NCBI GenBank assembly: GCA_020201445.1
Contig: JAIVGU010000011.1
Span: 1 to 9,225, forward strand
Reading direction: 5' to 3'
DNA: 9,225 bases
From: Halobacteriales archaeon
Lineage (GTDB): Archaea > Thermoplasmatota > E2 > JACPAO01 > JAHFTW01
The notes beneath the pieces are model-generated. The model did no database searches. It was not told the DNA's origin and saw only the letters and a list, made by a program, of their open reading frames with translations. Positions 2,066 through 3,233 of this stretch are shown here, in pieces; positions within the stretch are counted from its first letter, which is position 1; the number at the start of each line of letters is the position of its first letter. Position numbers and translations under genes: made by a program.

Positions 2066-2114
2066 TTACGTGCAAAGAACGTAAGCACAAAGAGTTTACG
2101 TTCCCTGCACGTAA
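2066..2114. promoter_or_regulatory. Nested palindrome, likely operator of the TA-like pair
   Basis: The left arm at 2066-2084 (TTACGTGCAAAGAACGTAA) and the right arm at 2096-2114 (TTACGTTCCCTGCACGTAA) are inverted repeats. They match at 17 of 19 positions and are separated by an 11-base spacer. The only mismatches are the two central bases of the arms (AA against CC). Each arm is itself a dyad, TTACGT-N7-ACGTAA, so four half-sites TTACGT/ACGTAA are arranged as two dyads centred 30 bases apart. The left dyad extends to 9 bp (TGCTTACGT at 2063-2071 with ACGTAAGCA at 2079-2087). The element lies 27-75 bases upstream of the DUF4258-like ATG, where its promoter should be, and overlaps the AT-rich segments that could serve as a TATA box. 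A pair of repressor dimers binding about three helical turns apart is the natural reading. A stem-loop in the RNA downstream of the thioesterase gene is the alternative. Confidence 0.72.
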
Positions 2115-2698: not shown

Positions 2699-3184
2699 TC
2701 AGCGCTTGCGGCCAGCCTTGCCCCGCTTCGCCTTCGCCCGCTTGGGGACGGCGCGCTTGGCGGCCTTGCGGGCCGGGGCCTTGCGGGTGCTCCGCTTGGC
2801 GGCCTTCCCCGCGGCCTTCTTCTTCGGCTTGCGGGCGGCCTTGCGGGGCGCCTTCTTGGCGGTGCGCTTCGCCGGCTTCTTCGCCGCCTTCTTCGGCGCG
2901 GCCTTGGGCGCGGCCGCCTTCACGACCTTGAACACCTCGGCCTTCTCGTGCACCTTCTGCGGCACCTGGACACCGACGTGCTGGCCGGCGTGGGCCTCCT
3001 GGATGGGCGCGTGGTCGAGTTGGAGGCTCTTGACCTTCTCCGTCAGGTCGTCGCCGTGGCCCTTGATGTGGATGGTGTCGCCGAGCTTGAGGTCGCCCTC
3101 CAGCCCCACGGACGCGGCGTGGACCTTGGGGTAATAGTGCTCGACGGTGCCGACCTTGCGCTCCTTGGGCTTCTTCGCGGCCAT
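2699..3184 (-). CDS. Translation elongation factor-like protein with a Lys/Ala/Arg-rich tail
   Basis: The protein is 161 residues long. Residues 9-88 (RKVGTVEHYYPKVHAAS...GDTIHIKGHGDDLTEKVKSLQLDH...GQHVGVQVPQKV...VFKV) match the small beta-barrel resembling domain 2 of EF-Tu/IF2 that archaea encode as a stand-alone 'translation elongation factor-like' protein of about 80-90 residues. From residue 89 to the end there are some 70 residues made almost only of Lys, Ala, Arg and Pro, with KKAAKKPAKR-like runs as in histone H1 C-termini. That tail is not part of the usual family and should be disordered, strongly basic and able to bind nucleic acid. I chose the ATG at 3184 because homologues start just before the KVG motif. 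An in-frame ATG at 3205 adds MARRFRP and is possible. No clear SD is present. Further upstream the same frame stays open to 3466, but that is proline/arginine-rich shadow over the neighbouring gene. Its molecular role in the family is unknown. Confidence 0.85.
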   Translation of the reverse strand: MAAKKPKERKVGTVEHYYPKVHAASVGLEGDLKLGDTIHIKGHGDDLTEKVKSLQLDHAPIQEAHAGQHVGVQVPQKVHEKAEVFKVVKAAAPKAAPKKAAKKPAKRTAKKAPRKAARKPKKKAAGKAAKRSTRKAPARKAAKRAVPKRAKAKRGKAGRKR

Positions 3185-3233
3185 GGGGCGGAATCGGCGG
3201 GCCATGGATACATGCCTTCCGCCTCGCGGCGCC

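Follow-up and report, generated by a model that had tools for sequence, protein, structure and literature searches.

What does a palindrome built of palindromes do in front of a pair of small genes? The element in question lies at positions 2066-2114 of a 9,225-nucleotide stretch (hereafter the window) of a Halobacteriales archaeon, contig JAIVGU010000011.1 of assembly GCA_020201445.1, and it precedes two minus-strand genes, A and B (Table 1). Most likely, in our view, the nested palindrome serves an archaeal toxin-antitoxin (TA) operon as its autoregulatory operator, with A as the toxin candidate and B as the antitoxin candidate. An operator before a TA-like pair had been proposed from the letters of the window (the original prediction), and the proposal is now supported by close relatives, by an empty site in genome G056 and by the predicted folds of A and B. 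What the sequence itself shows is the array, where it sits, that it accompanies the module and that it is missing from the empty site; the two folds are predicted, and binding, repression, toxicity and cooperativity are inferred.

Architecture, conservation and specificity of the palindrome

The inverted repeat consists of two 19-nt arms that are complementary at 17 of 19 positions and separated by an 11-nt gap. Each arm is in turn an exact TTACGT-N7-ACGTAA dyad; the dyad centres fall at 2075 and 2105, 30 bases apart, and the overall dyad is centred on 2090. At 2061-2120 the G+C content drops to 26 of 60 bases, as against 72.7% for the whole window. These figures were recomputed and agree with those of the original prediction, which had put the surrounding DNA at over 70% GC. 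The prediction had also held a chance origin to be unlikely, and here the design of the element and the length of the repeat must be distinguished. In local shuffles of 2041-2130 neither the inverted repeat nor even one such dyad arose (0/5000 each), and the two-dyad array of the window was absent from all 20000 composition-preserving shuffles. Likewise, TTACGT-N7-ACGTAA with up to three mismatches matches the window at the two arms only (mean expectation 0.28), and at least two such matches occurred in 6 of 200 shuffles. An equally good inverted repeat, however, was obtained in 4 of 200 dinucleotide shuffles of the whole window, so that the nested design stands out more than the repeat length, for which the claim does not hold to the same degree.

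A contig scan of genomes yielded three loci, L001, L002 and L003, the last of which holds a B fragment without a usable upstream region and was taken into the C-terminal alignment only. L001 encodes both A and B and carries ACGT-N7-ACGT and ACGT-N7-ACG upstream of A; their centres lie 31 bp from each other, and ACGT stands at -73, -62 and -42 from the A start (compare the window positions in Table 1). The letters between its cores differ from those of the window, and its overall dyad, too, is strong (score 13; 0/300 shuffles). L002, with B alone, has one ACGT-N7-ACGT and a degenerate TTGCGTG in place of the second dyad (alignment, by eye); gene A has no match in its genome, which may be incomplete. 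In composition-preserving shuffles ACGT-N7-ACGT arose 6 times in 20000 for L001 and 16 times in 20000 for L002. Identity between the window and L001 amounts to 3/11 in the inter-dyad spacer, 13/20 and 12/20 in the dyads and 12/23 in the far flank (near flank in Table 1); given such similar values, raw identity alone does not single out the dyads, which are distinguished by core letters and position. A palindrome just upstream of its operon and retained with it, as looked for in an autoregulatory operator, is thus found in the window and L001 and partly in L002. The original prediction was staked on the palindrome not being lost in close relatives with the gene pair, and it has not been lost, both dyads being present in L001 and one in L002.

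Directly downstream of the palindrome, within 2040-2065, the window and L001 have AAGC(C/A)AATACG in common, perhaps an initiator or other site. The TATA region that the original prediction places under the operator was not confirmed: the best match to TTTAWATA within 100 nt upstream of gene A reaches 5/8, and the promoter is therefore not located.

With at most one mismatch, TTACGTGYANNNNACGT has eight matches in four of six genomes, of which two are the L001 dyads, one is the L002 dyad and the remaining five lie within long open frames. Without mismatch it occurs in three of 79 genomes from the class of L001; apart from L001 itself, the occurrences in the remaining two genomes are inside long frames. 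The two-dyad pattern was found in 2 of 389 genomes of a phylum sample, namely at the A-B module of G001 and within an 11-bp tandem repeat of G321. Since a reversed control pattern gave ten matches in nine genomes, a random match in the phylum is unsurprising; the surprise is the position exactly upstream of A-B. Many scattered copies, the other outcome that would have spoken against the original prediction, were searched for in the relatives' genomes, where no dispersed copies were found (a single location in G001 and one, intergenic, in G002).

Judged by DUF655 (82% identical), none of the 389 genomes searched is closer to the window than G056, whose thioesterase is 88% identical to the window's. 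In G056, 115 bp past the thioesterase, there is a gene related to the one at 2-1165 of the window (30% over 191 aligned positions). A tblastn search of 14 kb of G056 finds neither gene A nor gene B, ACGT-N7-ACGT is absent from the gap and from the 14 kb, and the G056 genome contains no match to either dyad pattern. Gene B has no match in G056 at E 1e-20, and the matches of gene A are confined to G001 and G082. The G056 site lacks the module and the palindrome alike, whether through gain or loss.

The two genes and their surroundings

Gene A probably encodes a small MqsR-like (RelE/BECR-fold) toxin, a candidate mRNA-cutting enzyme, and this assignment is based on predicted folds: the MqsR match comes from VIA-align with the predicted structure. 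Foldseek gave gene A no match with an E value of 0.001 or below, and the best 50 of its 894 matches do not include MqsR. The curated MqsR family PF15723 matches neither gene A of the window, at E values up to 10, nor any of the 36 proteins, the window's own included, that a protein search assembled as the gene A family, and a PDB sequence search returned unrelated proteins only. DUF4258 is weakly matched by 4 of the 36 (best E 0.012), the window's own A not being among them. An out-of-frame open reading frame (ORF) at 1772-2035 (87 aa, ATG 2035) overlaps the likely gene A, and a mechanical ORF list misleads to this wrong protein. Taken as gene A it was rejected, its protein search giving 23 candidates, none at E<=1, as against the 36 proteins of the frame at 1749-2039.

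Gene B, with 69 proteins in its family including its own, combines an MqsA/YgiT-type zinc domain at about residues 43-104 with a MazE/AbrB-like C-terminus at 117-159 (160-aa numbering). Cysteines 46, 49, 81 and 84 are invariant in 26/26 homologues. MqsA takes the top three places in a PDB profile search (E 0.015-0.054) and ranks 1-4 in Foldseek (probability 0.99-1.00, E 0.029-0.12); the YgiT_finger cut-off is reached by homologues P0065 and P0068, while the window's own B stays below it (15.5 vs 20.2). A C-terminal helix-turn-helix (HTH; Xre) domain was not found in gene B: beyond residue 108 the model runs from a strand through a single helix of 7 residues to two more strands (predicted local distance difference test 66-80) and has no helical domain. 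The HTH-named TIGR03830 matches only over the zinc part (1-47 of 127 in the window, 1-65 in P0065), and a weak winged-helix match, SelB_WH1, occurs in 4 of 26 homologues. The AbrB-like fold was assigned by weak similarity in comparison with the MazE/AbrB swapped hairpin, and a PDB search with the C-terminal profile returned unrelated proteins only. Relatives of B were found neither in viral contigs (profile search) nor in plasmids, a phage collection not being among the sets searched. Of a B relative, L003 and L007 encode no more than the AbrB-like C-terminal part, near a contig start.

The order A then B on the minus strand is common to the window and L001. By an identical length of the longest contig, 26 of 36 gene A clusters, the window's own among them, were matched to a gene B cluster (a length being available for 68 of 69 B clusters), and in two metagenome-assembled genomes A and B bear neighbouring locus numbers (VI796_04810/04815 and AABY18_02740/02745), which indicates that they mostly travel together. 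G001 holds three diverged B-like genes (L004, L006, L008) with differing upstream sequences, two of them with an A match and the third with an A-like frame (by eye).

The palindrome lies within a 117-bp co-directional gap between the thioesterase stop and the gene A ATG at 2039. Gene B starts 4 nt past gene A if its ATG is at 1744, and the genes overlap if it is at 1756. The window is archaeal, with ribosomal protein L21e, Rpb4/RpoF and DUF655 encoded at 8.1-9.2 kb. A protein at 2699-3202 shows weak similarity to EF-Tu domain 2 and has a lysine/alanine-rich stretch (by eye).

Table 1. Coordinates of the operator candidate and adjoining features in the window
Feature	Position	Strand	Remarks
Candidate composite operator (two dyads within an overall dyad)	2066-2114	none	same architecture in L001
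Distal dyad, minus strand TTACGTGCAGGGAACGTAA	2096-2114	none	cores (ACGT) -73 and -62 relative to the start of gene A
Proximal dyad, minus strand TTACGTTCTTTGCACGTAA	2066-2084	none	cores (ACGT) -43 and -32 relative to the start of gene A
Gap between operator candidate and gene A start, 26 nt	2040-2065	minus	identity to L001 10/25 unshifted, 15/24 with a 1-nt shift
Gene A, MqsR-like toxin candidate, 96 aa, first of presumed operon	1749-2039	minus
Gene B, antitoxin candidate	1274-1756	minus	156 aa from an ATG at 1744, or 160 aa from one at 1756
Thioesterase gene	2157-2681	minus
991-bp stretch between secreted-protein-like gene (2-1165) and thioesterase gene	1166-2156

The operator reading and its rivals

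If the palindrome is an autoregulatory operator, B would hold toxin A through its MqsA-type zinc domain and read DNA through its MazE/AbrB-type domain. Each ACGT-N7-ACGT dyad, with cores 11 bp or about one helical turn apart, would bind one antitoxin dimer, and the distance of 30-31 bp (about three turns) between dyads would bring both dimers to the same side of the helix, so that they could act cooperatively in switching off A and B; repression would be lifted once the antitoxin is degraded or outnumbered by toxin. More tentatively, we propose an operator grammar of ACGT cores one turn apart in each dyad and dyads three turns apart, in which a strong half-site (TTACGTGYA) is paired with a weaker one in each dyad. 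L002, where no toxin gene was found and where one dyad is full and the second degenerate, gives a hint, from this single locus, that the toxin may link one antitoxin dimer to the other, the second dyad persisting only as long as the toxin does.

Limits to the operator reading come from more distant loci. Seven distant B relatives (L006, L008-L013) show no palindrome beyond chance in the 110 nt upstream of self-chosen starts, and the operator either drifts with the DNA reader or is confined to the close family. In L009 a different-lettered inverted repeat occupies -40 to -2 of A (14-nt arms, 11-nt gap); it is marginal (9/300 shuffles) and is not counted as support. As a side observation, L012 (in G119) has a B relative with an N-terminal extension, no A match, and a GACGTAC-AAG-GTACGTC dyad at the presumed start (by eye). 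With binding by B proposed and its AbrB-like fold assigned by weak similarity, the operator could instead be read by another host regulator, which would thereby control A and B. A regulon of the host should contain further copies of the array, whereas in G001 the sole copy is at the A-B module, and in G056, where the module is missing, neither pattern finds a match; we therefore consider a host regulator improbable.

Just as improbable is an RNA element, in which the transcribed palindrome would form a long hairpin in the gene A leader or at the end of the thioesterase transcript. Folds of the minus strand reach -35.3 kcal/mol (z -6.9) in the window and -20.1 (z -4.2) in L001, and the stop codon of the co-directional thioesterase gene lies 42 nt before the palindrome. 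L002, on the other hand, keeps a dyad without a stable hairpin (z 0.7, with a fold at least as good in 152 of 200 shuffles), and the ACGT letters and spacing are conserved, which an RNA stem would not need; the missing hairpin in L002 and the fixed core letters thus favour DNA recognition. The distance to the A start is also fixed in the window and L001, and Rfam has no match in the window.

Along with the RNA hairpin, a mobile-element origin and chance were tested and ranked below the operator. A remnant or end of a miniature inverted-repeat transposable element (MITE), or another dispersed repeat, would account for an inverted repeat in an AT-richer island and for a module present here and absent from the matching G056 site, but it is very improbable in view of the nested dyads at a fixed distance from the A start in two loci and the lack of dispersed copies in G001 or G002. 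A chance palindrome, for which the whole-window shuffles leave some room, is just as improbable, given the local shuffles and the same array in the same place in L001.

Relation to known toxin-antitoxin systems

The closest parallel to the proposed operon is mqsRA of E. coli, which the passages on it in PMC4803016 describe as having the toxin first, a larger antitoxin with a four-cysteine zinc domain and a C-terminal HTH, self-repression, and the toxin as derepressor. The present module resembles it in the toxin-first order, the larger antitoxin, a predicted RelE-like toxin fold, a predicted N-terminal four-cysteine zinc domain followed by a DNA-binding domain, and, as proposed, repression of its own operon. 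It differs in that the C-terminus of B looks MazE/AbrB-like instead of HTH and that A has no Pfam MqsR match, for which reasons we treat the module as MqsRA-like in its working and do not class it as a member of MqsRA.

In mazEF, according to PMC4803016, the AbrB-type MazE acts at an 'alternating palindrome' of combined inverted repeats. The predicted AbrB-type fold and the combined inverted repeats are common to both, whereas toxin A resembles MqsR/RelE by fold, the AbrB-like part here is C-terminal, and the symmetry is that of two equal dyads about three turns apart. As far as that source's account of yefM-yoeB goes, long and short palindromes with a common core and fixed spacing are kept with the operon and bound cooperatively; two palindromes that have a core in common, at fixed spacing and kept with the operon, are present here too, but with centres 30-31 bp apart instead of 12 bp and with another antitoxin fold. 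DUF4258, in the portion of PMC11980606 consulted, is a BECR-fold toxin family also fused to MqsA; it is linked to A by the BECR fold predicted for A and by the weak family matches given above, and differs in being antitoxin-first in the table of that paper and in having no match in the window's A. In PMC2701414, YgiU/MqsR is paired with Xre. In the open-licence PMC literature we found no description combining YgiT, AbrB and a zinc finger, nor one of DNA-binding-domain shuffling of MqsA in antitoxins, which does not establish their absence from print.

These comparisons suggest, tentatively and at somewhat less than even likelihood, a TA family of archaea in which an MqsR/MqsA-type toxin-holding pair is joined to an AbrB-type DNA reader with an operator grammar of its own. 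If so, uncultured Thermoplasmatota-type archaea would possess an MqsRA-like module in which the halves of the antitoxin have been exchanged, the toxin-holding zinc part being kept and the DNA reader replaced, and the nested operator would offer a compact, testable model for the spacing of antitoxin dimers on an archaeal promoter and for whether a toxin ties them together.
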